Shown piece after piece: positions 1-63,489 of a stretch of DNA of 64,000 bases. This DNA comes from Psococerastis gibbosa. Its lineage: Eukaryota; Arthropoda; Insecta; Psocodea; Psocidae. The translations under genes and the position numbers were made by a program. Below the pieces are notes generated by a model that was given only the letters and a program-made list of their open reading frames with translations, was not told the origin of the DNA and did not search any database. The stretch spans positions 44,489,039 through 44,553,038 of the forward strand of contig OZ020487.1 in NCBI GenBank assembly GCA_963971405.1, read 5' to 3'. The stretch's first letter is position 1. Every line of letters starts with the position of its first letter.

Positions 1-311
1 TTTTCAGTCTTCACACACTTGAATTATTCATAAAATTATAGTACTTCCTGTAAGAAGTAAGGCACTATAATATAGAGCCCTAGTAAGAAGTAATCAAGTA
101 ATATCAATAAAAATAAATTTCAATGGCTGCTATGGATGCTACGTTGCTATGGCAGCCGCGTGTCGCCCAGTTGCAAAAAAAATAGGATGTCGAAACTTTA
201 CAGTTTACTTCTGTCCTCCTGTCGAGACTCCACAGACCACAGACCTGAGAGTTGAGACCACCCACAAACCCACAAATCAGTGAATCAGTGAATCACTATA
301 CATTATACAAA
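1..311 (+). promoter_or_regulatory. Nopp140 upstream region and 5' UTR
   Basis: This is the sequence before the first Nopp140 codon. It is mostly AT-rich with a short GC-richer patch around 130-170 (CGCGTGTCGCCCAG). No clear TATA box sits at a sensible distance, so a TATA-less promoter is likely. The transcription start cannot be placed. The start codon at 312 has the context ACAAAATGG, good for insect initiation, and an in-frame ATG is absent upstream within the open frame except at 252, which lacks family similarity. Confidence 0.4.
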
Positions 312-413
312 ATGGCTGAAGACGCGAGTGCTGTAACAAATGCATTAATTTACCAATATATTAGCTCTTTTGATAAGAATTTAGCCGGTGTCTTTAAAAA
401 ATCAAGAAAATGC
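312..413 (+). CDS. Nopp140: Nopp140 exon 1
   Basis: This exon encodes 34 residues beginning [17 protein letters not shown] and ending SRKC, then donor TGC|GTAAGT (phase 0). The helix-rich [11 protein letters not shown] stretch fits the LisH-like N-terminus of NOLC1 proteins. The start was chosen for its initiation context and because the family begins this way. Confidence 0.85.
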
Positions 414-3400
414 GTAAGTACAACCGGTTTTTGACTTGATGGCTATCGCACTTGTACATTTACCAGGAAAAGTTGTCGTATGTTACACCACGTGTTTACC
501 AAACATTTACCCTTCGAATTTGTAAATTTGTATGAAATAATGAGAAAGTTAAGTTTCATTGATTATTTTTTCAAGAACTACAGCACTAGATATACTAGGG
601 AATGGGGAAAATTTAAAGGTATTGTAATGATCGCGGGAAGTAGCAACCGCAAAGTTCTGCTGAAGTTCTTTCAAGTGTAAAGACAAAAATTGGAGTTGTG
701 AAGAGGCTATGGTTCCTACCTCGAAGTTTAGAATAACTCTTTTCAAAACATTGATTAAACCACATGTGAATTATTGTCAATCACTGTTTGTACATGCGCC
801 CGTCCACATTACAAACCAAGTTCAAATACTCCTAAACGATGGAATGAGAGCGGCCCTAAATATTCGAGTGGCGAGGGAGGTTCCACGAAAAGTGTTATAT
901 GAGCAAATTGGAGTCATTCCACTGCTGGATGAAATGTACGTTCATGTAATGATTCTGTTGCACAAGGTAAAACTTCAAGAATGCCCAAGTTATATGGTTG
1001 ACAAGACTAGGAGAGTAAATGAAGTCCACTCATACAGTACACGCCGAGCTAGAAATTTTTATTATGAATTGTCAAATTCTGGAAGAGGAAGAAAATCTAT
1101 CTTTAAGGAATGGGTATCAAAATACAATCAACTAAGTTACGAACTAAAGAACATAACTGAGATTTCGAAATATAAAGTTGCCCTGACGAAGAAGATCCAA
1201 GAAAGTTAAGAAGATGAGAAGTTGATGATGTTGCGGTCAACAAATTAGCAGCTGCTGCTACCATGTTCAACAACAACAACAACTCGGCGCTCCAGTGAAA
1301 ATTATGTGCCAAGATTTATAAAATAATAATAAGAGGGAGCCGTTATTTTCCGCCATCTTCATGCAATCTTGTGTTGTTTGATGATGTTTATTTAATAGCC
1401 ATGCGGTTAGTTTGCGACACTACCCAGTAATAAAAAGGCCAAAAGTTATTGTGATTTGTGATTAGCAGTAGTCTTATCAAATGCTAGTTACTCCAGTGTC
1501 AATAAGGCATGAGAACTATGTCTCCCGCGAGGCCTTGCAAACTGGAACAACAAGTGGAAGTGGAACAGATGTGGGTTTGTACAACACGTGTTGGGGTCGA
1601 AGGGGAGAAAAACGTATGACTTGACTAAGGTAGGCGCGTCCAGCCCGGGGGGACTTTTGGCCGCTGCCACTACACCACGCCATCTCGGATGATCTTCCAC
1701 CGTTAGCTTCCAGTCTCGGGACTCGGGTGCCGGTGGCGTGCACATCCTCGAGCACTTGATCACTCATCTGAGCCTTGGCCTACCGGGACGCCTAGGGTGG
1801 TTGAAGGTGTCTTCGAAAACCAGCTTCGGCGTTCTCTCTCCCCTTGCATACGGTGCAAATGACCACGCCGTCAAAACAGTCTGGCTCTATATACCCGACG
1901 CCCTTTTAGTTCTAATATTATGTTCGGCGAGGCTAAAAGAAAAACGTATATTAAATGCAATTCCTTTAAAATCTAATCTGGCCCTCGAGAAAAAAAGTTT
2001 GGGGACCGCTGCTTTAGATAAACTATTACTATGAAACCAATTGTTCAAAAATACTCGAATATTATGTTTATTAGCTGCAGAAGCTCTAAATTCATATCTG
2101 TTCGGTTTGTGTCATTCAATTGTTTTGGAAACACAATTTTTTCAAAGGCACATAATATATATGTTCGGTCACTGTTGGCAACTACATTTACTAGAAGACT
2201 AACCTCTAGACTGGTTTATCAAGATTACTTTCTACGTTATTCCCTTGTGTAATAATGGTTTGGATTACGAGAGAAGGAAGTTGAATAGCAAGCCAGATCT
2301 CTACCTAGACAATTGAACAATACAATGATCAAAATTATGGTAATATTGTTGATGTTCTGAAATTATTGTTCTTATTCAAGCTTCCTGTTCTAGGTGGATC
2401 TTGAGAAGGGTGCACCATCACTTATTAATGTTGTGTCACATTATACAAAGTAAGTAATGCTATTTTTGTTGTTGTTTAAATAGTAGATTTTTAACCTCAC
2501 TAAATTGAGGCAGAAAAAATTTCTTGGATTCCTATAATTTTTTAAAATGTGAGTAAAATTTGATACCATAAATGGTGGAAATAGGTTCAGAACTGCAGCA
2601 CTCAACAAAAACTAACGAAAAGTTATCCCCCCCCCCCGCTCAGAAATCCTGGGAACGGCATTGGGGCTTAGAACAAAACAAATGCAACGTGTAAGTTTTG
2701 ACCCTATTCAACACCATTCATGGTACCATTGAATCGTTCACTTTCCTCGCTTTTTATCTCTTAACAATATTCATCATTATACCCATTGTTAGACGTGTTG
2801 GCTAACTAAACTTGTGGATCTATACGTTAAAAAAAAAAATAAGGCGTGGGATCCTTACGGACTTGGCGCTATAAATACAAAGACTTCGTCGGAGTCAGAG
2901 GTCGGAGTTGATGAAGTGATGAAGCAGTAGAATCGGGGATGATAGGCCATATTCGATATGAAAGCGTATTTCCAAACGGTTGACATCTATTGTGGCACTG
3001 CGGAGACTCAGCAACTGCTGCTGCTTCGAAGTCTGTGCAGTATGTGCACAATAGATGTCGTCCGCAGGTGCTGACGAAACGATTGGATTTGGCGCTGGTA
3101 GGTGATGTGAGTAGTGCGTATTATTAAAAAAAATATTATTAATAATTTTAAAAATTACAGGACCCATGGTCAAGGAAAGAAATTGAAATGCAAGGGGAAG
3201 AAGGATGAATCGTCTTCGGAAGAAAGTTCCGATTCAGCTGATAAAAAGCCTGCGCAAAACAAGAAAGCTACCCCAGGTTTGTGCAATACAATTAGAAATT
3301 TGTGACATTATTAAGGGTGTACAGCCCGTAGGAAAGTGGCAGCCCGAAATTTATTACTTTTTATTTTTTATTTGTTTCATCAAAGTTGTAGAAGACTACT

Positions 3401-6400
3401 TCATGCATCATATAATAAGGTATTTTTAGTTTTCGAAATTGTAGTTTTTTTTTTTTATAAAAACGATAATACGTTTTTGTTTATCAAATATTTGCATGTT
3501 TCTGAAAAAACTACAATTTCGAAAATTAAAAATATCTTATAATATGATGCATGAAGTAGTCTTCTACAACTTTGATGAGCCAAATCTTTAATAACATGCT
3601 TAGTTAATTAAATAAAAAATAAAAACTATTAAATTTCGGGTTGCCAATTTCCTACGAGCTGTACACTCTTAATCTTTAGCTCCAGTTGCCCGGGTGAGGC
3701 ACGTGAACCTCTTCCACCCCACCTATACTTGTGATTATCCAATACTCCCTCTGATATCATTCTCACTGTTCTGAGATCGTCCTCAATCTCCTTTGGCCTT
3801 CCTCTTTGAATGTTCCCTCTATTTCTTCCTTCGCGCATTTCCTCGTGCACCTGCTGTTATCCATTTGCTTTCTAGTCTCGGTGAAGAGTCTCGCGTCTTG
3901 GTAGATGGCAAAATACATGAACTAAAAGTAAGGTAGGTTGCAGATATGGCTAGTGATGGAGCCATTTTAGCTTTAAGAGTCTCTATGTCTATTGAAAAAC
4001 ACTTAGCCATACGCCTAACAAACGCCCAAACTCAGCTAGGGTGCCTTTTTGCATTTAAATTATACTTACTTACTTGACGTGTCCGGTCCGGGCCTAGGAC
4101 ACGTTGATCCAAAACGTTGCGGTCTGGATGGCCTTGTCGTTGACGTCTGAACGACCCGCCTAGGACACAGCCTCTCCCAGTTAGACAAGAAGGTGGCTGT
4201 CGTCTTGTGTCTGCATTCAAAAGTCCGCCATTCCCCACCTACACAAGTTCGCGCGGCATCTTGTGACCCCCGTTCTTAGCCTATTGAGGCTCCGCCATGC
4301 AGGGTAGGGTAGGGCTCCGGGCGCTATTTTTCCCTGCATGTTTGGAGTTAGGTTCTTCCACCTTATTATACAATATAATTTAAGTTAATATTTATTTATT
4401 TATTTATTTATGTATCGTGTGTTTGCAGTCCATTTAAATTCTTGGAATGTGTTCCTTTATTGCAGTTACAAATGGCAAAGCCCCTGCCATCGCTAAGAAA
4501 GCATCTTCCAGTGATGATTCCTCTTCAGAAGAAGAAACGTCTAAACCATCCACACAAGTTAAGAAGACACCTGTTCAGGCTAAACCTGGTAAGAAATTTA
4601 TGGTCATCATCAGGGGGTCTGGAAATTGCTTGAAATTAATCTTCCTATTCACTTTATAATTTCGATAGCATGAAAATTACGTATAATCATGACCTTGTCT
4701 TTCCGAAGTTAACATTAAATGTTTAGTTCAGCAGTTTATAAGGGTCTTCACAGTGATGGTGTTATCGAGTTAGATATAGTGCCTTAGTTATCATGCTATA
4801 TTTTTACAGGGTAAACAACGTGGTAGTAGTCAGACGTTCGTGGCACGGTTTTAAAGAAAGTGGAAGAACTCTAATCTAGTGCCACATTTGTTTACATTTT
4901 TTTGTACATTTTGGTTATTATAATTTTAAGTATTTACGGTAATTGCTTGTGATAATAGATTATACAAATAAATTTAAATACTACAAAATTTTAAACGCGT
5001 GTTTCAAATCAATCAACAAAAACAAAGATGGCGGCGGTCAAACCTGAGCTACCGATAAGTTAAATAGCGCAGTTAACCAACTTGGAAGTGAGTTTAGGAT
5101 AGCACACTGGTTAGCTTGGTTATTGGGTTATCGGTGTGTTAACTTAACTTGATATAACACACTTAACTAGGTATAACTCGATAGCACGAACACTGTGAAG
5201 ACCCCTTATTTCTAAAATTCAGTTTTTCGCCTGTTACAATGTTAATGTTACCCATTATCGCTTCGATTAGGTGTGAGTTGACACCGAGGACGTGAATCAG
5301 TTAGCCAAAAATTAAAACAATACCAATAATGTCCGAAAACCTGATGTAGTCGTAGGCAGAGCAAGCAGGCATACGTCCAAAAGTCCTTCAAATTATAATC
5401 AAAATTAATTATCCAACGTTCCTTTACAAATCGCATGTCTAAAATCATTTGTTAACGCTGTTTGGTAACTCATAAAGTTTACGTTAATGCTTTCGTAGTT
5501 ATTCGTTAGTAAAAAAATCTTTGTGATGGTTGAAATTTTTGATTTCGAGATTTCAACGGATTTACACGTTTTGAGGTGGCAGGATCCCAAAAACGTATAT
5601 CAGTCGATTTGTTTACCATGAATCTGCCCATGATCATTTTTTCGATACCGATAATAGATTAGTATAGAAAGCACCTACAGGTTCACTCGTACCGGTTTTT
5701 GATAAGCATAGCATTTGCTTGAAAGGGTCGAACTATTGGTGTCAAATGATGTCAAACTTGCGATGTTTGTTAATAGTTTTTCTGAACATGCTGAGTATTC
5801 ACCCGAAAGATTATTGTTTTTTTTTCTGAATTTTCTGGCCATACCTAAATCTAACCATACTGTAAAGTGGTTACTTAAAGTAAAAAACTATTAATAAGTC
5901 ACAAAGCAGAAGTTTAAAGTTAACATTTGGTCTATTTCAGTTGCTAAAGTTCCGCCTAAGAAAGAGTCAAGTAGTGACGATTCTTCGTCGGAAGAGGAAC
6001 CGGCAAAACCTGCTGTAGCGAAACAGCAGCCTACTAAAAAACCAGTAGCTCCCGTTAAGCCAGTTAAAAAACAAGAATCTAGTGATGACTCTAGTAGTGA
6101 CAGTGATGAAGAAAAAAAGAAACCGGCGGCAAAAACTCCCGTCAAAACCATTCCCAAGCCAGCAGCATCTGCTAAGACCTCAGGTAAGGCGGCATTCTGC
6201 GAAGACCAGTGCTGTTTTTTAATTTAAGAGGCGCTTTGCCCTAATGAACTTCCACGCTCCCTGATTCTTCCGGAGTGTTCTGCAGAGGAGGTTGACTTGA
6301 GGTACACGATGACGAGAAGCATGACCCTAAATAAAAAATGACTTTGTTTTATTACTAAGCCAACCTAGCCATAAAGCCCTCTCGTACACTCAGCTAGGAG

Positions 6401-7519
6401 TTAGTTAAGTTGTTTGGCCCAAATGCGCAATATTGTGGTTGTTGGTTCGCCTTATTGTGATGATTTTGCGCTGAATTGCACTATTTTAGAGGTCTTTTTG
6501 ACGTAGACCTAGTTGCTCATTGAGCATTGTCATATATTACTCCATGCAATTTTCGTTATATTTCGTTATATGGGGTAAACTGGCGTATATATTATCCTCG
6601 TCGATATCAGCTTACATCAGTTGGTGTCGGCAATTGGACCAGCTGCCGCTTGCTTCCCATAAACTCAATGTGTAACAGGTCTTATGTGGATTGGGAAAGT
6701 CTGCTGATACTCGTTTTGTTGTTTGTTTTTCAGTAAAAAAAGACGAGTCTTCAAGTGACGAAGACAGTTCCGATGACTCTGAGGAGAATAAGAAGACTCC
6801 TGTCGTCAAGCAACCTCCGACTAAACCTGCTGCAAAGGCAGCACCTGTTCAGAAAAAGAAGCAGAGTTCAAGCAGTGAAGAAGAGTCGTCGGATGATGAA
6901 AAAGCGAAGCCGGCGCCGAAAGTAACACCGGCCAAACCGGCTTCAACACCGGCAAGTAAAAAGGCACCAGCAAAGAAGGAAAGTTCAAGTAGTGAGGAGG
7001 ATTCATCAGAAGATGAGAAAAAACCTGCACCAACCCCAAAGAAAACACCAGCTAAGGTAGTTGTTGCAAAGAAGGCGAGTTCAAGTAGTGAAGATTCGTC
7101 TGATGAGGAAGAAAAGAAACCTGCGGCCAAGCCAACACCAGCTAAAGCTGTCGCTACTCCTGCTAAGGTAGCGAAAAAGGATAGTTCTAGTAGTGAGGAA
7201 GATTCATCTGATGAAGATGCGAAGCCTGCAACTAAATCAACACCATTGAAGGGTGCCATTGCTGGCAAGAAGAAGGATTCTTCGTCGGAAGATAGTTCTT
7301 CTGACGATGAACCACCTGCAAAGAAGGGAACGCCGGCTACCAAAAAGCCAGAAGTAAGTATAGCCGACAGTCTTGGATCGCAATGGGAAAAAGCTATGGC
7401 TAACCTGTTTTGAACTTGAACTTGGTCACGTTCTATATGTAGCTTCATATCAATTCATAAGAAAAAGCAGTCAGGCCCAATAAACAGAATTTGTTATATA
7501 ATCCCTGAATTAACTGTTG

Positions 7520-7573
<54 letters not shown>

Positions 7574-10500
7574 GAAGGGCTTTTTATAAACATAGGCATA
7601 ATTGTAGTGTAGGCCTATTGATCCTTGTGCCGATGACTGTTTCCGAGTGTATTTCTAGCCGTTGACTCCCCGACGTCAACCCACACCGAGTACAAGTGCT
7701 AATGTGCAAGCTCGGACATGCTTACCATTGACATTGTGAGATCGTGTTAACCAAATTTGTGAACAAGTCTATGAATATACTAAAGAAACATTAATTTTTT
7801 AGCCTGTTAAGAAACAGAAGAAAGAAAGTTCTTCAGACGATGACTCTGATGACAGTGAGGAGGCACCGGCCAAGAAACCTGTAGCGCAAGCGCCAGTTGC
7901 CGCTAAGAAGAGAAAAGCACCTGATGATGATGATGACGACGACGATGAAGAAACTACTTCAAAATTCCAGCAGAAGAGTGAGTGGCCGCTTTTGGTTTAC
8001 TACAATATAAGTCATGGAAAAAATAGGGTTTTATGAATTTTATCTGGACCCGCCATTTATAAGGGGAATGTGGGGAAATATTGGCTAATAAGTTGTTGAC
8101 GTCTGCTAATTGGCACTTGTCTTAAATTCAATAAATTATTTGATAACTTTTAATAATTTACGTTTTTTTAAAAATCAAAATCGAACGATCTGTTGGCAAC
8201 AATGATTAAGGGACAGATTTCCAAATATTTCGTTGACAAGGAATGGAATTTCACAAAATAAAGTGACATAATTTTGTTGAATATTTATTTATTTTATAAT
8301 ATTTATTAATTTATAGTATGGTTTTTAGAATACCTCATTGACTTGCCAAAGGATAGCGTCATTAGTTAGGTGATGGCCCCAATAATTAACTATTATTAAT
8401 TAACTGTTAACTAACTATTGATTTAATCCTTATTTCAGGTGCCAAAAAGAAAGCTGTTGATACTGAGAATGGCGGCTCGTTTGACACATCTCATGATAAT
8501 AGCCAGGTGAGAAATTATTGCAATTGCAAGACAACCAGGGATAATTTTTTCTCAATTTTCTACTGTTGCACAGTCAAATTTCTCATGAAATATAGTTAAT
8601 AAGGTGTCATGAACTGGCAAATATATTCCTCTACGCTTTGATGTTCATTATGGTGTCAGTAACACAGATTGACTACGGTTATATTATATATTATTATGGT
8701 ACTTAATTTGTTAAAAATAACGGTCACTGAGGATGTCAGGAGGTCCAAAACTGCCCAATTAGCGTTAGTCACGGCACATACGATATGCCAAATTAAAGAG
8801 GAAAATACATTTTACTTTATAACTTCTCATTTATGACTGTGCGATTAAGATGCCATACGAAATTTTACTTTGAGCGGAAAAATACAGAGGACTCCTTTTG
8901 CGTTAGAACATGCAAACGTGTCGACATTTTTTTTTATAGGGCTAATCGCATACACATTTTAATTAATGAATCCGATTGACCTCTTCAGTCGCCTCTGTAG
9001 GTTAGTACCCGTGTTGAGTTGCGACAAAGAATTGTAATTGTAACTATAATTTTTCCTAGACTAATGGATATTCATCTAAGAAAAAACCTGAGCCTTTCAG
9101 GCGCGTGCGGTCCGAGGAGGTAGAGATTGATCCGCGGCTTGCCGACAACTCGTTCGAGGCCAAGGTAACGCAAGGGTGTCACTGCGAGAGGGGCGTATGG
9201 AAGTGCCTTATTCACTTTTTGTACAAAAGCGGCTGCTCTCTTCTGACAAATAATTTGGTTATAAAATTTGGTGGTTTTGACTGAACAAAAAAAAAAAAAT
9301 TGTGTTCCATTAAAACTTGTAATAACATCATCTGAGGTCACAATCTCTTTACAAGTGAAAAAATCAAATATCTCGTAGAGCTATCAAAAATATCACATCC
9401 ATTGAAGGAAACTTTTCTGCCCATTCTGACAAATGATAAGTAGGCTACCTCTTTTTAACACCAGTTGACCACAAAATTATCGAAAATGACTTATGCGACA
9501 AATACTTACTTACTTAACTTGTCCGGGCCTCTTTGATCCAAAAACTTGCGGCCTGGATGGCCTTGTTATTAGCATCTGAGTGATCTGTCTGGGACGAAAA
9601 CTGTGGCCAACAGGTGCTAGAGACGGCCAAAATTTAGGCGCAAATTCCACCGACCTCGATAGTGATATTGACGTGGTAGCAGACATTAAAGACAGTCTAA
9701 AAATGTCTGCTACCACGTCAATATCAGTATCACTATCGAGGTCGGTGGAATTTGCGCCTTAGTTGGGATTTATTCTAAAGGATGTCATATTTTTGGTAGC
9801 TCAACTATGAATATATCCTGTGAAATACAATGCAAGTAAAAGAATAATTGATGACAGTGAAAACGCATGTAGATATGGTAAATAATTATTTTATAAACCA
9901 TTTAGAACACATAAATGCACCAAGTTTTATAAACAAACTGACGGGAGAGAAGCGCTTATGATGCCGAGCAGTGACTAAATCCACCTTTGCGTTATTTAAT
10001 AGTATATATTAAGGTCACTTTCATACAAACCTCTCGTTATTTTGCAGGAAGGTGGTGAAGAGGAGGAAGAAAACGGCTATGGCGGAGGTGGTCGCTTTGG
10101 ATTGGGCTATAAAGACAGGGGTGGTCGAGGTGGTAGAGGTAGGGGTGGAGAGCGAGGGGGTCGCGGGAGGGGTGGAGGCGACAACAGTTACGGGCAGAGG
10201 GAAAGCGACTGGAACTGCCCCAGTGCTAGCTGCGCAAGCTCAAATTTCGCATTTAGGCATGAATGCTTCCGTTGCGGGCAAGCCAAGCCTGGTGGAGAGG
10301 GGGGTGAAAGTGTCAGTCCTGGCGGTGGCCGCGGTGGTTTTAGGGGCCGAGGAAGAGGTGGCGGCGAAAGCAGTTATGGGCAACGTGACAGTGGTGGCTT
10401 TGAGAAACGAGAAGGCGATTGGAACTGCCCCAGTGCCAGCTGCGGAAGTTCGAATTTCGCATTTAGGCAAGAGTGCTTCCGTTGCGGTCAGGGCAAGTCT

Positions 10501-11239
10501 GGCGGAGAGGGTGGAGATGGTGCCAGCCCGGGGGGTGGCCGCGGTGGGTTTAGAGGCCGAGGAAGGGGTTTTGGCGGCGATCGAGGCGGCAGGGGACGTG
10601 GCGGATTTGGGGATAGAGGCGGCGGTAGAGGGCGAGGTAGGGGTGGGTTTGGAGGTGGTGATAGAGGGCAGAGACATTCCTTCGGCGGGGGGGATGCAGC
10701 TTCGCAGAATAAGAAGATTACATTCGACGACTAGACTAGGTATGTTGGGCTGTTCTTCAAAAAGTGGCTCATAGCTGTAACCATCTTGAGCATCTGTGGG
10801 TTTTTGTAGAGTGTAATTTATCTCATAATAATTTTTGCCAGTGACTTAGCGGCATATGCTTACATTCCTTTAAGTAAAGAATTCGATAAAGGCAAGTTAA
10901 TACTTGCGTTTTCCAACGAAGCAAACCATTTTATTATGGATAAATATATTTACAGTTTCGCCTTGTTTACCATATGGTAAGCTGCATTCTGTTAAATAAT
11001 CAGAGACTAAACTAACTCGTTCCGGTCCTGTCATTTATTTTTTTCATCATTTCATCATTGTAATTCTATTTCAGAAAAATGCACGCGGCTCCTGGGGTGA
11101 GGGTGCCAATTCAGTGCTGAAATACACGAAAGGAAAGTCATTCAGAAAGGAGAAAACAAAGAAGAAACGAGGATCTTATCGGGGTGGAACTATTGATATG
11201 GCCGTTAACTCTATAAAATTTCATTACGATGACGATTAA
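312..11239 (+). CDS. Nopp140: Nopp140 / NOLC1 nucleolar phosphoprotein (gene span, alternatively ended)
   Basis: Spliced gene. Coding exons: 312-413, 2394-2449, 3161-3276, 4466-4588, 5941-6183, 6734-7353, 7803-7977, 8439-8506, 9060-9164, then either 10048-10734 (RGG end) or 11075-11239 (canonical end). Phases agree at every join and predict 764 or 590 residues. The N-terminus (exons 1-2) looks like the LisH-type dimerisation segment. The middle (residues about 55-500) alternates acidic CK2-type Ser blocks such as [12 protein letters not shown] with Lys/Ala/Pro linkers, the hallmark of the family. Exon 9 holds PFRRVR and DPRLADNSF, close to human NOLC1. Family role: a nucleolar and Cajal-body chaperone of box C/D and H/ACA snoRNPs that also binds Pol I machinery, regulated by heavy CK2 phosphorylation. 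The paired True/RGG ends resemble those known for Drosophila Nopp140. Identification is firm; isoform use is inferred. Confidence 0.93.
414..2393 (+). other. Nopp140 intron 1
   Basis: A 1,980-bp intron with donor GTAAGT and acceptor CTGTTCTAG. It contains a same-strand LINE reverse-transcriptase fragment (709-1209) and a GC-rich stretch (about 1500-1900) with no intact frame that is probably transposon-derived. No other gene was seen. Confidence 0.7.
709..1209 (+). mobile_element. LINE reverse-transcriptase C-terminal fragment
   Basis: A 166-residue open frame with the typical post-catalytic pattern of jockey/CR1-type LINE polymerases. It has a YxxLIxPHxNYC-like segment ([13 protein letters not shown]), then [15 protein letters not shown], a [18 protein letters not shown] block and a charged tail. 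The catalytic YADD region and endonuclease are missing, so the copy is 5'-truncated and dead. It lies in the sense orientation inside Nopp140 intron 1. The family label comes from pattern resemblance only. Confidence 0.7.
2394..2449 (+). CDS. Nopp140: Nopp140 exon 2
   Basis: A 56-bp exon after acceptor TTCTAG, reading [18 protein letters not shown] and ending AA|GTAAGT (phase 2). It completes the N-terminal LisH-like region; LINVVSHYT parallels the 'LLDIYSFW' region of human NOLC1. It is too short for standard ORF detection and was recovered by phase. Confidence 0.8.
2905..3075. repeat. Truncated foldback element in Nopp140 intron 2
   Basis: It shares 'gaagcagtagaatc', 'tatgaaagcgta' and 'ttccaaacg' with the foldback at 17,291-17,473, in the same order. 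Only part of the second arm remains, so this is a degenerate relative inserted just upstream of exon 3. Confidence 0.5.
3161..3276 (+). CDS. Nopp140: Nopp140 exon 3
   Basis: Acceptor AAATTACAG, phase 2 in, phase 1 out (CCA G|GTTTGT). It encodes a Lys-rich segment (KKLKCKGKK) followed by the first acidic Ser block ([11 protein letters not shown]), then a basic linker. The donor GTTTGT is a weak match to consensus, so exon 3 may be inefficiently spliced. Confidence 0.85.
3311..3672. mobile_element. MITE-2 copy A (TTAA-ended foldback element)
   Basis: Long inverted repeat. The left end TTAAGGGTGTACAGC is mirrored by GCTGTACACTCTTAA at the right end, and the arms continue with 'gaaattta' and 'gtagaagactacttcatgcat' modules. 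The arms exceed 100 bp around a short AT-rich centre. TTAA or TA at both borders may be the target duplication. Related copies are at 27,028-28,106 and 14,560-14,829. It begins only about 35 bp past the Nopp140 exon 3 donor. Confidence 0.8.
3640..3890 (-). mobile_element. LINE polymerase tail fragment (overlapping and flanking MITE-2 A)
   Basis: The minus-strand frame reads [18 protein letters not shown] and HKYRWGG, resembling the C-terminal 'GRPK..W.D.L' tails of LINE reverse transcriptases. The end 'cacccgggcaactggagct' recurs at 18.4 kb and 25.1 kb in the same tail family. Badly decayed. Confidence 0.5.
4060..4230. repeat. Dispersed repeat with copy at 9.5 kb
   Basis: The block 'cttacttacttgacgtgtccgg' through 'gatccaaaacgttgcggtctg' to 'gatggccttgt' recurs in diverged form at about 9,505-9,600. 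Both lie in Nopp140 introns in the same orientation. The ACTT-rich edge suggests a retroposon end. The family is not identified. Confidence 0.55.
4466..4588 (+). CDS. Nopp140: Nopp140 exon 4
   Basis: Acceptor TTATTGCAG, phase 1 in and out (CCT G|GTAAGA), 123 bp. It encodes one acidic/basic module: [20 protein letters not shown], then [20 protein letters not shown]. Being symmetric, it can be skipped without a frameshift, like exon 5. Confidence 0.9.
4589..5940 (+). other. Nopp140 intron 4
   Basis: A 1.35-kb intron. It contains a SINE-like dispersed repeat (about 5,270-5,395) and a partial copy of another dispersed repeat at 5,505-5,600 ('tttgtgatggttgaaatttttg'). No coding potential was seen. 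Confidence 0.5.
5270..5395 (+). repeat. SINE-like dispersed repeat copy
   Basis: It contains 'ttgacaccgaggacgtgaat', then 'taatgtccgaaaacc' and 'catacgtcc', in the same order as copies at about 25,515-25,650, 54,308-54,460 and 55,935-56,095. Inverted copies lie at about 7,616-7,730 and 16,040-16,170. At least six diverged copies are in the window, so this is an abundant short interspersed family. Confidence 0.6.
5941..6183 (+). CDS. Nopp140: Nopp140 exon 5
   Basis: Acceptor GGTCTATTTCAG, phase 1 in and out, donor TCA G|GTAAGG, 243 bp. Two acidic Ser modules ([14 protein letters not shown] and [16 protein letters not shown]) are separated by Lys/Pro/Ala linkers. This is typical NOLC1 repeat architecture with many CK2 consensus sites (S-x-x-E/D). 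Confidence 0.93.
6734..7353 (+). CDS. Nopp140: Nopp140 exon 6 (main repeat exon)
   Basis: 620 bp, acceptor GTTTTTCAG, phase 1 in, phase 0 out, donor GAA|GTAAGT. It holds six or seven tandem acidic modules of the type [12 protein letters not shown] alternating with KKTPAK/APAKK linkers of about 20 residues. These are the repeat units that in the family are phosphorylated by CK2 and bind snoRNP and Pol I partners. Repeat DNA is conserved between modules, suggesting recent internal duplication. The frame stays open through the donor for 19 more codons to a stop at 7411-7413. Confidence 0.95.
7354..7484 (+). promoter_or_regulatory. Nopp140: Possible intronic stop and polyadenylation site
   Basis: If the exon 6 donor is bypassed, the frame adds 19 residues ([19 protein letters not shown]) and stops at 7411-7413. 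AATAAA follows at 7479-7484 with T-rich sequence after it. This would make a short Nopp140 lacking exon 7 onward and either C-terminus. Directly seen: the frame, stop and hexamer. Use is inferred. Confidence 0.4.
7521..7573 (+). repeat. ATT microsatellite
   Basis: About 17 perfect copies of the trinucleotide ATT in Nopp140 intron 6. The long uninterrupted tract is likely polymorphic. Confidence 0.95.
7803..7977 (+). CDS. Nopp140: Nopp140 exon 7
   Basis: Acceptor AATTTTTTAG, phase 0 in, phase 1 out (AAG A|GTGAGT), 175 bp. It encodes [20 protein letters not shown], a KKRKAP putative nuclear localisation motif, and a run of eight Asp before [10 protein letters not shown]. Confidence 0.93.
8439..8506 (+). 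CDS. Nopp140: Nopp140 exon 8
   Basis: A 68-bp exon with acceptor TTATTTCAG, phase 1 in, phase 0 out, donor CAG|GTGAGA. It reads [20 protein letters not shown] then NSQ. It is too small for ORF detection and is supported by matching phase on both sides. Confidence 0.82.
8521..8800 (+). repeat. Dispersed repeat copy (second copy at 28.7-29.0 kb)
   Basis: The blocks 'tattcctctacgctttgatg', 'ttcattatggtgtcagtaac', 'gttaaaaataacgg' and 'gttagtcacgg' occur in the same order at about 28,735-28,990. One copy is in a Nopp140 intron and the other in an SRRM1 intron. No coding frame or terminal repeats were recognised. Confidence 0.65.
9060..9164 (+). CDS. Nopp140: Nopp140 exon 9 (start of the SRP40 C-terminal domain)
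   Basis: 105 bp, phase 0 on both sides, acceptor TTTTTCCTAG, donor AAG|GTAACG. It encodes [20 protein letters not shown] then [15 protein letters not shown], matching the conserved 'PFRRVR..E.EVD.RVADNSF' block of NOLC1/SRP40 proteins. It is the last exon shared by both isoforms, so the RGG isoform keeps this block but loses the rest of the domain. Confidence 0.95.
9637..9759. mobile_element. Short TA-flanked hairpin MITE (MITE-1-like)
   Basis: Nearly perfect palindrome. 'ggcgcaaattccaccgacct' at the left is mirrored at the right end, and the arms (about 52 bp) meet around 'ttaaagacagtctaaaaa'. TA sits at both borders. The inner arm 'gacgtggtagcagacatt' is shared with the larger MITE-1 elements at 12.7, 27.0 and 30.9 kb and, in altered form, with 56.8 kb. 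Confidence 0.85.
10048..10734 (+). CDS. Nopp140: Nopp140 alternative 3' exon: RGG domain with two RanBP2-type zinc fingers
   Basis: Acceptor TTATTTTGCAG in phase 0 with exon 9, 228 residues to TAG at 10732-10734, ending KKITFDD. The order is an acidic start ([15 protein letters not shown]), an RGG box, zinc finger 1 (about residues 589-614 of the isoform), RGG, zinc finger 2 (about 660-684), then a long RGG box. Both fingers fit W-x-C-x4-C-x3-N-x6-C-x2-C with the NFAFR and EC motifs of FUS/EWS/TAF15 fingers, which bind RNA. Each finger is followed by the same [11 protein letters not shown] tail, so the unit was duplicated. RGG boxes are PRMT substrates and bind RNA. The RGG isoform class is known from Drosophila; the fingers are the unusual part. 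No AATAAA was seen before the next exon, so both ends may share the signal at 11354. Confidence 0.9.
   Translation, partial: EGGEEEEENGYGGGGRFGLGYKDRGGRGGRGRGGERGGRGRGGGDNSYGQRESDWNCPSASCASSNFAFRHECFRCGQAKPGGEGGESVSPGGGRGGFRGRGRGGGESSYGQRDSGGFEKREGDWNCPSASCGSSNFAFRQECFRCGQGKSGGEGGDGASPGGGRGGFRGRGRGFGGDRGGRGRGGFGDRGGGRGRGRGGFGGGDRGQRHSFGGGDAASQNKKITFDD
11075..11239 (+). CDS. Nopp140: Nopp140 canonical terminal exon (SRP40 C-terminal domain)
   Basis: Acceptor CTATTTCAG, phase 0 with exon 9, 54 residues and TAA at 11237-11239. It reads [20 protein letters not shown] then [18 protein letters not shown] and ends [11 protein letters not shown]. This is nearly the human NOLC1 C-terminus ('WGERANQVLKFTKGKSFR', '[10 protein letters not shown]', 'VNSIKF'), the family's most conserved part. 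It is mutually exclusive with, or downstream of, the RGG exon. Confidence 0.96.
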
Positions 11240-11329
11240 AGGTGGAGACCTATGTTTATAATATTGTAATAAGTAACTTTCAATGTAAACCATCATTCAA
11301 TAGCCAGAGCACAAACGCAAAAGAAAATC

Positions 11330-12110
11330 TAGTCCGGGAGATTTTTTAAACCTTAATAAATTATATGCAACCCAAAGGCAGAATAGTTCACAAATTAAAA
11401 AAAAATTCCAACTCTTTTAAGAAAAATTAATTATCTTCATAAATAATATTTCAAAGAATAATCTATAAGCATATTCTTATAGAGACAGCTTTACTTGTAG
11501 CCTCCATCCACTTTCAATATTGCTAGCCTTGGCAGAAGAATTAAGGGCCTCTGGGAAATTGTTTTTTTCCGGTCATTTTTTTTTTTTGTTTGGGGGCTCC
11601 TACTAATACTGTTTTCATGGGACGGCCTTGATTGCACTTTTGAAGGTGGTAGAAGTAGCTGTAACCAATTTCCTCTCAGATGCGCTGGCTTGGTGAAGAT
11701 GGATGACCTTCTCCCTTTTGAAATTGAATTTTCTCTTGGCATTTTTTTAAATTTTTAATGTTTTTCAACACTTCTCACGTGATAAACTTGATAACAGACG
11801 AAAATTTGGCCTTTAAACTAAAAGAGGATTCAGTAAAAACTTGCTAACTATTGTCTCTCATGAAACAAAATATCTTTTTGAAGGACACATATGTATTCTA
11901 TTTGATGTTTGTATTGCTAAATTTACTTCATCGTGTCCTCAACAACTGATAGCAAGGATTATGATATAATAGTTCTTTATAATATTATTCATTAAGGCTA
12001 TAACCTTTTTAACAGGAGTTGGAAACTTTAGAGGTGTGCGAACTATTCTGCCTTTGGGTTGCATATTATTTATAAAACTTTAAATATTTATTATTAAAAC
12101 CTTTAAAATG
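11330..12110. repeat. Long imperfect inverted repeat over the Nopp140 3' end
   Basis: The left arm (about 11,330-11,480), containing 'tgcaacccaaaggcagaata', is the reverse complement of the right arm (about 11,950-12,110), containing 'tattctgcctttgggttgca'. Further matching blocks ('agttgga', 'aataatattat') lie in mirror order. The arms are about 150 bp with a spacer of about 470 bp. The polyadenylation hexamer lies in one arm. Confidence 0.75.
11354..11359 (+). terminator. Nopp140: Candidate Nopp140 polyadenylation signal
   Basis: AATAAA 115 bp after the canonical stop. It falls within the left arm of a long imperfect inverted repeat (11,330-12,110). It may serve both isoforms, since no hexamer was found between the RGG stop and the final exon. 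Confidence 0.55.
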
Positions 12111-12267
12111 GTCCAGGTCTAGAATGCGCAACTAATTCATCTCTGTTGGCCACAGTCTTGTCCTTTTTCTCATCTTAGTGTTAATTTTTATTCATTGAAA
12201 TGTATTTGCGTCAGTTTTCACTTATCCCGGATTAGTTATTCTGTAATGTTGGTGCTATGTCAGCTGG

Positions 12268-12385
12268 ACGACAAAGAAAAAGTAAGGATCTTATTGGGAT
12301 GGAATTATTGATTGACGTGACCGTAAATGCTGTAATATTTTATTATGGATACGATTAAAGCTGTAGACATATTTTAATTACCGTA
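12268..12385 (+). pseudogene. Decayed duplicate of the Nopp140 terminal exon
   Basis: The sequence follows the 3' half of exon 11075-11239 and its early 3' UTR: 'acaaagaaaaagtaaggatc', 'ttattgggatggaattattg', 'gtaaatgctgtaatatttta', 'acgattaaagctgtagacat'. Frame-breaking changes are present, including a stop where the real exon has AAACGA. It sits just beyond the inverted repeat, suggesting it was copied during the rearrangement that made that repeat. Confidence 0.7.
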
Positions 12386-12686
12386 TTATCAATAATCAGC
12401 TAGCTCTAGTTGCTCGTGTAGGCCTATGTGACGTGAGCCTCATCCACTGACTGTTCAACTCTTTCCCTGGTACCAGTGGCGGACATAGAAATATATTAAC
12501 TGGAACGGCGGGAGCCAACTATCAAATATAAGTAGCAAAGTACAAAATATCGAAGTCTTCATTACAGCATAGCAGAACGGATCAAAACTCTGTACTTGCC
12601 AACGCTGTGCACACTACCAAGTATGCCGCAGTTTGGTACAGGTTCTGTTCTGGTTGATTCAACATGGTATGGCCGTTGGCAAATTA

Positions 12687-13055
12687 GGCGCCCATTCCAT
12701 TGACCGGCTAGGGCTATTTCCAAAAAACAGTGACGTGGTAGCAGACATTCAAGACTTAGGTTTCCACCGATCTCGCTTTGCAGAATGCAAATGACTGACG
12801 GAAATTAGAATTTTTCTTTTTATAGAAATCTATTAAAATGTTTGTACTTAACATATCCCATGACGCCATTTTTAATTTTAGTTTGTGATTTTACCGTATG
12901 ATCATTGATCAATTTTAACTATGGCATAGAGGAAAATAAACATTTCCGTCAATTCTGCAATGCGAGGTCGGTGGAAATCCGCCTAAGTCTTGAATGTCTG
13001 CTACCACGTCACCGTTTTTGGAAATAGCCCTAGCCGGTCAATGGAATGGGCACCT
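12687..13055. mobile_element. MITE-1 copy A (TA-flanked)
   Basis: Terminal inverted repeats start ggcgcccattccattgaccg and end in the complement (cggtcaatggaatgggcacc), flanked by TA on both sides. The arms carry 'gctagggctatttcc' and 'gacgtggtagcagacattca'. The second inner arm pair is 'ccgatctcgc' / 'gcgaggtcggtgg'. 369 bp with no open frame. The TA duplication fits a Tc1/mariner-type transposase acting in trans (inference). Confidence 0.85.
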
Positions 13056-14114
13056 TAATAATAAATTACTCCTCGGCTATATTTTCGGTGAGTTATCAAT
13101 TTTTTTCTCCCTTAGATGTATAGCCTACACATAAATTAAAATTCAGATTACATTTCAAAATGCTACCTGTAGATTTTAATTTTTATTAGTATTTCCTTGA
13201 ATTATAAAACAATGCAACCATTCCCTAGTATTCTAATAATTTATTAATGCGAATTTCCCGCGCATATGTTAACACCGTCACGTGACACCTTACTACTGTG
13301 GTAATAAAAAATAATCCCCGGTGTTAAGTTAATCCGCAATCGCCGTAATAGGGCTGCTGGACGGAGAAATTAATTAATTAATTCTCGTACCCCATGTTGT
13401 CTTTTAAAAAATATTTGGGAAGATTCCCCTTAAAATGCTGATCTACAGGCAATGACGCGTTGGAAGACAAGTTAGGCTTCAATTGTACATAAAAAACATA
13501 ATGTAATGACACAAAACAAATATTCAGTTGACCTCAAAACACTATCTTTATTATTCCATGACTTTCTTTCATAGATGATAATTATGTTAACGGATAGTTT
13601 CACTTGTTTAACCTCCTCCTATGAAACAATCGAACACCCCCCTTGCCCGTATTTAAAAAATAAATAAAATGCAATTGCACAGGTCGAACAGCGATAAATG
13701 AGACGTCATAACGTAGAAGTAATGTTGCTCTACATTATGATACGTGGCCGTCACTAACGCCAATTGGACACTGTTTTGGAACTCCTTAGACTTGTTATCC
13801 TCAATGTATGTTATTTTTTACAAATCAAGTACAATAACTAGCCGATCTATAATCATGTATCATAAAATGCAGATCAAAATGGATATGAACATTTCAACAC
13901 CCGAAAGGTTGAGTCCCACTTCTTCGTTTTCTGGCCAAGCTTCTTCGAAAAATAGCCTTCCTAGTTGAGCTAGAAGGGAGCTTTCCCGCCAAAAATCAGC
14001 TATAGGCTGACTTAGTTGTTACAACTTTTCCGTTATGACATCTATGATAGGCATTGGCTGGCTCTAAGATAGATATTTAGTTTTTTTACGTCCGTAAGGC
14101 TTCTCCCCTCAGTC
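13056..14114. other. Intergenic, no gene seen
   Basis: AT-rich sequence between Nopp140 and SRRM1. One 74-codon frame (13744-13968) has no recognisable features. Nothing supportable was seen. Confidence 0.5.
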
Positions 14115-62361: not shown

Positions 62362-62700
62362 ATCGATGTCTTCCCTACAGAAATTATTGTAAAATGTTAC
62401 AATATTAACTAGGCTGGTAGCTTTTTCAAATAGACCTAAATGCGTATTTTTTGGGCGAAGTCAAGAGATGTAACCTACCTGCTCTGCTGGGAAATTCAGT
62501 TTGTAGAATGTAAGAGAAACGGATGAAATTGCAAGTTTCCTTTCCCCTTTATGTCATCCAAATTATAGTCTAGAGATGTGATAGAGGTTAGAATGTGAAA
62601 GTGCATGGGGTAAAACTTAAATCATTCAACCATTTAGTTGACAGCTAAAATATCATAGAGGTAAACTTATTGATTTGCTGAATATTTAAAACTAGCCAAC
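62362..62700 (+). other. Sh3beta: Sh3beta 3' UTR
   Basis: AT-rich sequence after the stop without open frames of note. No AATAAA was seen before the minisatellite. ATTAAA at 63,251-63,256 is a possible signal, in which case the minisatellite is inside the 3' UTR. Confidence 0.45.
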
Positions 62701-63130
62701 TACTCAATTCTGGGATGCATGAAATCTTACTTAATTTAAATTTCAGTAGTCCAGAAGCTATGAGACGTACAGTTGTCTTCGACAGCATACAAAACTCTGG
62801 TTGTACTAATTTATTTAAAACTAGCCACCCATTCAATTCTGGGTTGCATGAAATCTTACTTAATTTAAATTTCAGTAGTCCAGAAGCTATGAGACGTACA
62901 GTTGTCTTCGACAGCATACAAAACTCTGGTTGTACTAATTTATTTAAAACTAGCCACCCATTCAATTCTGGGTTGCATGAAATCTTACTTAATTTAAATT
63001 TCAGTAGTCCAGAAGCTATGAGACGTACAGTTGTCTTCGACAGCATACAAAACTCTGGTTGTACTAATTTATTTAAAACTAGCCACCCATTCAATTCTGG
63101 GATGCATGAAATCTTACTTAATTTAAATTG
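62690..63130. repeat. 129-bp minisatellite, about 3.3 copies
   Basis: The unit starts 'catgaaatcttacttaattt' and runs through 'gacgtacagttgtcttcgac' to 'cacccattcaattctgggtt', beginning near 62,718 and repeating about every 129 bp; the final copy is cut after 'atttaaatt'. Units are nearly identical. 129 is divisible by three, so both strands show repeated open frames (142 and 214 codons) that are by-products. Confidence 0.93.
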
Positions 63131-63489
63131 TCCTGACACATAAGGGAAGTGCAGTTGTCTCCGACAGCTTATAAAACTCTGGTTGATCTCATTTCCCGTA
63201 TGTACTCGCAGATCTAGTTTACTATTAGCAAAAAAAAAAAAGAATAGAATATTAAACAGTGTGGTGCTCGGGTCTTGCATTGTGTCCAATTTAAGCTTAG
63301 TCTTTAGTTGTGTGGTTCATTAGATTATAGTCTAGTTGCGCTCTAGTTACGTATTACTAGTACATTTGTTAATATTAGTTCTAAGGTTTATCTGACCGGT
63401 GATATTGCTGCGCTTTCGCCAAAACGCTACGGATTGATACAATGATAAGGATGGCGTTACTAAATCCCAAAGTTGTTTTAATAGAAACG

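Follow-up and report, generated by a model that had tools for sequence, protein, structure and literature searches.

Known RGG-ended Nopp140 and comparable proteins

In Drosophila, an RGG tail replaces the standard tail of Nopp140 by alternative splicing (PMC12192640; this and the other papers are cited throughout from excerpts), and the isoforms of the fly gene are also treated in PMC7197718. Over-expression of the RGG form led to expression of R2 in rDNA, while that of the standard form did not, and the fly tail was likened to that of nucleolin, with no zinc finger named in the excerpt (PMC12192640). Which RNA or chromatin the RGG tail touches is left open by the Drosophila work, as far as the excerpt goes (PMC12192640). 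A preliminary description of the locus presented here had pointed to the RGG-ended Nopp140 of Drosophila, as PMC12192640 bears out, and had known of no report of FET-like fingers in it. Indeed, no report of zinc fingers in Nopp140 stands among the matches listed from the open-licence literature, and none is mentioned in the excerpts of PMC12192640, PMC9487646, PMC7197718, PMC4661536, PMC6384913, and PMC7154859. The two-fingered tail is new in detail, the RGG isoform of Nopp140 being already known, and automatic annotations may already include a fingered form without a name for it.

The locus lies in a window of 64,000 nucleotides (contig C12, 44489039-44553038), and genome searches covered the 409-Mb assembly of 68 contigs. 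By exon anatomy and phase, it would share with fly Nopp140-RGG the gene, the common N-terminal body, and an RGG tail in place of the standard one, but here the tail has 228 residues and two RanBP2-type fingers. With the FET proteins (FUS, EWS, TAF15, cabeza) the tail has in common the order RGG-finger-RGG, the x4 spacing, aromatic residues at finger positions 17 and 19, and R20, and a GEGGD flank is found both here and in the genome's own FET. Unlike FET proteins, it displays no RRM (Pfam finds Zn_ribbon_RanBP only), has two fingers instead of one with N14 and N24 replaced, and ends in NKKITFDD without a C-terminal R...PY import signal, the own FET ending in GRSRPY; the Nopp140 body also has no SYGQ-rich N-terminal domain, a single SYGQ standing before each finger. 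Nucleolin, like the RGG form, is an acidic phosphoprotein of the nucleolus that ends in a long RGG tail. Its end is of the KK..F-acidic type, which NKKITFDD resembles, but it has RRMs and is not known to carry a zinc finger.

Two further groups of fingers invite comparison. In those of RBM10/RBM5 and the ABI3 suppressor, N14 and N24 are likewise replaced and F24 is present, and CFRCG is also found in RBM5; the Nopp140 fingers differ from them by the x4 spacing (x2 in RBM5, with the gaps in its row placed by us), the FET-like aromatic residue at 19, and the RGG context. For RBM10 and ABI3, binding to GG with a relaxed third base has been reported (PMC6384913). ZRANB2 also has two RanBP2 fingers in one protein, the first of them with x4 spacing, but the Nopp140 fingers lack N14, N24, and R19, and the flanks of the genome's own ZRANB2 are not RGG.

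Structure of the Nopp140 gene

All features given here lie on the forward strand. Nine shared exons of Nopp140 (312-9164), assigned by borders and translation, hold 536 codons, and every border is GT-AG. Exons 1-5 occupy 312-413, 2394-2449, 3161-3276, 4466-4588, and 5941-6183, followed by exons 6-9 at 6734-7353, 7803-7977, 8439-8506, and 9060-9164, the last ending at 9164 with GAG GCC AAG|gtaacg. Read directly, the translation alternates acidic-serine and basic Lys/Pro/Ala repeats. An N-terminal LisH-type motif is a feature of Nopp140 (NOLC1/SRP40); a Pfam scan of residues 1-132 at E up to 1 returned no LisH family, and no Rfam family reached its gathering score in positions 1-14000 of the window.

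The canonical ('true') last coding exon is located at 11075-11239, stop included, and covers positions 28-76 of the Pfam domain SRP40_C (PF05022). Joined to exon 9, it yields 104.4 bits over positions 1-76 of 76, while exon 9 alone matches positions 1-26 with 20.3 bits, below the cut-off, and the last exon alone reaches 71.1 bits (E=1.5e-19). The standard protein, with exon 9 spliced to 11075-11239, has a predicted length of 590 residues. Because SRP40_C occurs once in the genome (a single match, 2 candidates scored), Nopp140 is, judged by this domain, a single-copy gene.

An alternative exon with an RGG tail

Between exon 9 and the canonical last exon, an open frame at 10048-10734, closed by a TAG stop (10732-10734), encodes a 228-residue RGG tail with two RanBP2-type fingers, 12 RGG, 23 RG, and the C-terminal end NKKITFDD. 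Its sequence makes a genuine coding exon, kept by selection, very probable, and this exon very probably provides an alternative tail of Nopp140. Its 3' splice site (10028-10047; ...tattttgcag|GAA) has pyrimidines at 12 of 17 positions before a CAG and ranks second by pyrimidine count among the 47 YAG sites examined in 9190-10739. The junctions of exon 9 with the RGG exon and with the exon at 11075 are both in-phase GT-AG junctions of phase 0. Joined to the RGG exon, exon 9 keeps the first third of SRP40_C (22.8 bits, below the cut-off of 28.6), and the predicted protein has 764 residues. Coordinates, phase 0 on both sides, and finger pattern are as the preliminary description gave them; the in-phase alternative tail that it proposed agrees with the GT-AG borders, the phase, and the translation, the splicing being predicted from sequence, and the order RGG-finger-RGG-finger-RGG is confirmed by translation and Pfam.

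No in-frame ATG occurs in the whole open frame (10003-10734). In the upstream stretch 9166-10039, no donor scores at least 7/9, and when 6/9 donors are allowed the open stretches from an ATG to a donor reach nine codons at most. Having neither an in-frame ATG nor a plausible upstream first exon, the RGG exon must be joined to coding sequence further 5', for which Nopp140 is the only plausible candidate found. The G+C content rises from 0.32 to 0.53 across 10040 (adjacent 60-base bins) and drops to 0.42 where the stop lies and to 0.38 in the following bin, an intron bin (9920-9979) also going up to 0.43; the whole exon has a G+C content of 0.60 versus 0.38 for the window. A spliced retrocopy proving the junction was not found among the three genome matches of the tail (3 candidates scored), these being the tail itself, FET, and ZRANB2. 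We infer use of the predicted 9164/10048 junction, binding of RNA, and action in the nucleolus.

Within the intron that immediately precedes the RGG exon, nested near-perfect inverted repeats occupy 9631-9764, with arms of 41 and 30 nt that are 93 and 97% complementary, respectively. They resemble a small inverted-repeat element and might fold the pre-mRNA into a hairpin.

End of the RGG exon

Five bases past the RGG stop lies a candidate 5' splice site, TAG|GTATGT (10737-10745), which matches CAGGTAAGT at 7/9 positions and would start an intron at 10740. It is the only site of at least 7/9 among the 22 GTs in 10735-11074. Of the nine accepted Nopp140 donors, five score 7, one 8, two 6, and one 5. 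The stretch 10735-11074 has no AATAAA or ATTAAA, and an AATAAA possibly common to both isoforms follows at 11355-11360. Given this donor and the lack of AATAAA/ATTAAA before 11075, the RGG exon is most likely a stop-containing cassette, in which case the SRP40_C exon would follow it as 3' untranslated sequence. An mRNA with its stop five bases from a junction is spared under ordinary decay rules, so that these rules would not condemn the cassette mRNA. A cassette whose 3' end is common to both forms accounts better for the donor and the poly(A) signals than the 'terminal exon' of the preliminary description. The cassette model nevertheless depends on this one 7/9 donor, in a window where 54 of 3,574 GTs score at least as well.

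The two zinc fingers

Finger 1 is encoded at 10207-10290 and finger 2 at 10417-10500. In the genome-wide scan, finger 1 alone reached 20.0 bits, below the Pfam cut-off, and finger 2 alone 28.9 bits, above it; together, the two stretches of the RGG exon match Zn_ribbon_RanBP (PF00641) with 35.7 bits (E=5.2e-9; cut-off 27). Both fit W-x-C-x(2,4)-C-x3-N-x6-C-x2-C with position 17 aromatic, and both are exact fits to the narrower W-x-C-x4-C-x3-N-x6-C-x2-C, so that the RanBP2-type fingers named beforehand are recovered by pattern as well as by HMM search. A low-complexity artefact was considered and ruled out by the Pfam match and by residue shuffling, as not a single fit to the pattern arose in 20,000 shuffles of the tail.

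Across the genome, 16 of the 38 PF00641 matches listed exceed the cut-off, and a pattern scan of 11 loci yielded 21 fingers, 18 of them belonging neither to FET nor to ZRANB2. We compared the Nopp140 fingers with 17 others, 13 drawn from these 21 and the remaining four from human proteins. Both group with FET, ZRANB2, and RBM5, far from the remaining fingers compared. Both possess D4, an aromatic residue at 17 and at 19, and R20, a set displayed by none of the 10 other own fingers compared (10 of the 18 non-FET, non-ZRANB2 ones). By these sequence features, both can be assigned to the single-stranded-RNA-binding RanBP2 class.

A model of finger 2 built from five aligned fingers had a mean pLDDT of 84, and its best fold match in the PDB was the FUS finger bound to UGGUG (TM 0.80, E=3.1e-3), no Foldseek match reaching 1e-3. 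The alignment held FET and ZRANB2 rows, so the match is no independent test and checks the fold, not the ancestry. The two-finger stretch, modelled without an alignment, gave a pLDDT of 48 and was not used. The PDB sequence search was headed by ZNF265 finger 1 (2.1e-7, against finger 2), followed by FUS (1.3e-6, against finger 1). Collections of viral and of prokaryote contigs, which are not made up of animal genomes, gave 69 and 590 pattern matches to a 65-residue stretch, none of them confirmed, a negative of little weight.

Internal duplication and selection

The fingers belong to an internal duplication (10180-10569), a unit of SYGQR[ED]S, finger, and 20 residues being present twice, at 10180-10359 and 10366-10569, the second copy with eight more residues (GGFEKREG) ahead of its finger. 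The duplication suspected in the preliminary description is thus corroborated by an alignment of the units over 60 codons. These codons differ by 20 synonymous and 11 nonsynonymous changes (pS 0.51, pN 0.078; dS 0.86, dN 0.08; dN/dS about 0.1), and the 26-residue finger alone by seven and three. Third codon positions carry 24 of the 31 differences (binomial P 6e-7, Fisher P 9e-9). In the true frame, 10 of 60 residues differ and no stop occurs; in control frames, the differences amount to 28/59, 24/59, 25/60, and 28/59, and one reverse frame shows 8/59 but three stops. To judge by these codon differences, the duplicated unit is under purifying selection, which argues against decay of the RGG exon. 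Gene conversion between the units could affect this comparison by lowering both rates, but would not alone make the differences synonymous.

One SYGQR motif stands ahead of each finger (10180-10206 and 10366-10392). The low-complexity domains of FET proteins repeat SYGQ; its presence here is possibly due to chance.

Predicted RNA recognition

Finger positions were numbered by an alignment made here, in which the gaps of RBM5 were also placed. In ZRANB2 finger 2 and its relatives, the contact roles described include those of D4 and R20 to guanine and of N14 and N24 to U3 (PMC6384913). At positions 4/14/17/19/20/24, FUS and the own FET read D/N/F/W/R/N, RBM5 D/L/F/K/R/F, and both Nopp140 fingers D/S/F/F/R/F. 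Both fingers thus retain D4, R20, and the stacking ring at 17. The asparagines that read U3 in ZRANB2, which FUS and EWS conserve, have given way to Ser (N14) and Phe (N24), and position 19 is Phe, where ZRANB2 has Arg and FET has Trp. Both guanines were required by every finger tested in the excerpted work, in which the RBM10 finger (V14, F24) accepted all four GGN and preferred GGG, and the ABI3 finger (C14, F24) bound GGU, GGG, and GGA and hardly GGC (PMC6384913). With N14 and N24 replaced in both copies, the Nopp140 fingers are predicted by analogy with RBM10 to read GGN with a relaxed third base, not GGU as in FET. The sequence-specific RNA binding suggested earlier is therefore predicted to differ from that of FET, both U3-reading asparagines being replaced in both fingers. 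That Phe at 19 does what the authors of PMC6384913 propose for Trp is a guess, and binding could be weak or lost, in view of this Phe and of the replaced N14 and N24.

Origin of the fingers

The genome's own FET gene, on contig C19, looks intact, with an RRM exon (47.7 bits), RGG exons, a finger exon, and the end GRSRPY; no SYG-rich N-terminal exon was found in the 29 kb scanned. Its finger is the best match of the tail in the protein search of the genome (44.3 bits, 57% over 59 residues), followed by ZRANB2 (27.1 bits). By summed BLOSUM62, the own FET also comes first, with 99 for finger 1 and 95 for finger 2, the runners-up being FUS (91) and ZNF265 (91), respectively. By plain identity, finger 1 agrees equally, at 14/28, with the own FET, finger 1 of the own ZRANB2, and ZNF265, while finger 2 agrees at 14/28, 13/28, and 15/28. 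Blastn aligned the RGG exon with the FET finger exon at 65% over 173 bases, a match largely explained by the protein similarity, and at the DNA level the FET finger exon (7-kb locus) gave 68.3 bits versus 25.4 for the ZRANB2 locus. Codon identity to FET at identical residues was 23/38 versus a synonymous-shuffle mean of 20.9, a value reached by a fraction of 0.235, and nucleotide identity to FET compared with shuffling gave P 0.16 for finger 1 and P 0.019 for finger 2. The DNA trace of FET descent beyond the protein is at most faint.

A tree of 14 fingers set the two Nopp140 fingers apart from all others (support 91) and left FET and ZRANB2 unseparated, the inner nodes of the RNA-binding group having values of 17 to 60; even the own FET was not paired with human FUS, the sequences being too short to decide. 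The flanks were compared in 13 shuffle tests, all P values being uncorrected. Downstream flanks resembled those of the own FET (GEGGD; P 0.002 and 0.027) rather than the own ZRANB2 (P 0.69 and 0.13), and the upstream flank of finger 2 gave P 0.08 against FET and 0.0096 against the own ZRANB2, that of finger 1 P 0.89 against FET. Human FUS flanks entered six of the tests, and all six, that of the own FET against FUS included, gave P of 0.19 or more, so the flanks say little about descent. Read from its borders, the finger exon of the own FET has phase 1-1, and the Nopp140 exon begins in phase 0, so exon shuffling finds no support in the exon borders. Taken from the sequences, descent of the fingers from FET is a little better than even. 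The capture from a FET-like gene put forward beforehand agrees with the FET finger being the best-scoring genome match, but identity, tree, flanks, and codons do not single out FET; likewise, the finger phylogeny called for separated the Nopp140 pair but not FET from ZRANB2. As both fingers share S14 and F24, these changes most likely predate the duplication, unless conversion spread them.

Proposed mechanism

We consider it probable that 10048-10739 is a stop-containing cassette giving Nopp140 an alternative tail, skipping leading to the standard form and inclusion to the form with RGG and two fingers of the RNA-binding class. Skipping would join exon 9 to the SRP40_C exon, giving the 590-residue protein; inclusion would break SRP40_C after about its first third and add the 228-residue tail, giving 764 residues, while the SRP40_C exon, joined behind the included exon, would go untranslated. 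Nucleolar targeting by the Nopp140 body is known in other species, and here the body would carry the RGG isoform to the nucleolus. There, the RGG stretches would bind RNA weakly and broadly, with the two fingers adding two short G-rich contacts, predicted as GGN with a relaxed third base. A further proposal, which we hold to be rather doubtful, is that the splice switch trades a snoRNP-chaperone tail for an RNA-condensing one, that the FET-derived fingers drifted from GGU to GGN, and that the G-rich contacts lie on pre-rRNA, snoRNA, or nascent rDNA transcripts.

With two compact RNA-reading domains and a predicted motif in the tail, the question left by the Drosophila work could be approached by measuring binding. 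The tail would also be a case of a FET-type finger-RGG module at work beyond the FET proteins, and of two fingers moved from GGU to GGN reading with their fold unchanged. If the further proposal is true, a FET-type RNA-reading module was recruited into ribosome biogenesis in this lineage.

Alternative explanations

The exon might, as in the preliminary description, be terminal in the strict sense and use a separate poly(A) site within 10735-11074, where variant signals exist (AGTAAA at 10873, GATAAA at 10885 and 10939, AATATA at 10943, and ACTAAA at 11006); we regard this as distinctly the weaker reading, given the 7/9 donor five bases after the stop and the absence of AATAAA/ATTAAA before 11075 while AATAAA is present at 11355. 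Far more improbable is a separate small gene, or a decayed FET paralogue, within the last Nopp140 intron. The order of finger and RGG does match the FET C-terminus, and the closest relative that the genome offers is the finger of its own FET (57% over 59 residues), but a gene of its own would have neither an in-frame ATG nor a plausible upstream first exon, the exon is without RRM in Pfam and the tail without a PY end, and the genome's FET gene stands elsewhere, on C19, with RRM, finger exon, and SRPY end. Decay, moreover, sits badly with the purifying selection on the duplicated unit.

An alternative Nopp140 tail with a cassette exon being preferred, its fingers could still owe their FET likeness to convergence, a ZRANB2-type or de novo RanBP2 finger having arisen inside a pre-existing RGG exon. 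To this we give a substantial minority chance: the tree leaves the order of FET and ZRANB2 unsettled, finger 1 of the own ZRANB2 ties with FET for finger 1 (14/28), human ZNF265 finger 1 surpasses it for finger 2 (15 versus 14 of 28) and stands above FUS in the PDB search, and the upstream flank of finger 2 is like that of the own ZRANB2 (uncorrected shuffle P 0.0096). Against it weigh the downstream flanks, like those of the own FET (P 0.002 and 0.027, uncorrected) and unlike those of ZRANB2 (P 0.69 and 0.13), the protein search (44.3 versus 27.1 bits), the DNA match (68.3 versus 25.4 bits), and the FET-like aromatic residue at 19, which is Arg in ZRANB2. Whatever their source, the fingers may have ceased to bind RNA and act, like other RanBP2-type fingers, as protein-binding or structural zinc ribbons, as the replacement of N14 and N24 and of R19 by Phe in both copies would allow. 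This appears unlikely, since D4, the aromatic residues at 17 and 19, and R20 are kept, the full set occurring in 0 of 10 other own fingers, the fingers lie in an RGG context, and the RBM10 and ABI3 fingers bind GG-containing RNA in spite of replaced N14 and N24 (PMC6384913).

Other observations in the window and genome

Intron 1 contains a 181-codon open frame (664-1209) resembling the tail of a non-LTR retrotransposon polymerase, with no Pfam family at E up to 0.01. By eye, intron 3 holds an inverted repeat at 3330-3665, the sequence near 3340 returning reverse-complemented near 3640, and two different introns carry a similar, SINE-like repeat (ACTTACTTACTT...GTCCGG) at 4062-4150 and 9505-9600. 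At 62645-63316, open frames on both strands consist, by eye, of three to four tandem copies of a unit some 43 residues long. Contig C68 carries a full COX1, open throughout in the invertebrate mitochondrial code, and 42 more COX1-like matches (E up to 0.001), mostly partial, were found on other contigs. TGA encodes Trp in mitochondria; in-frame TGA, TAG, or TAA occurs in 35 of these 42 matches, and many nuclear copies of mitochondrial DNA seem likely in this genome.
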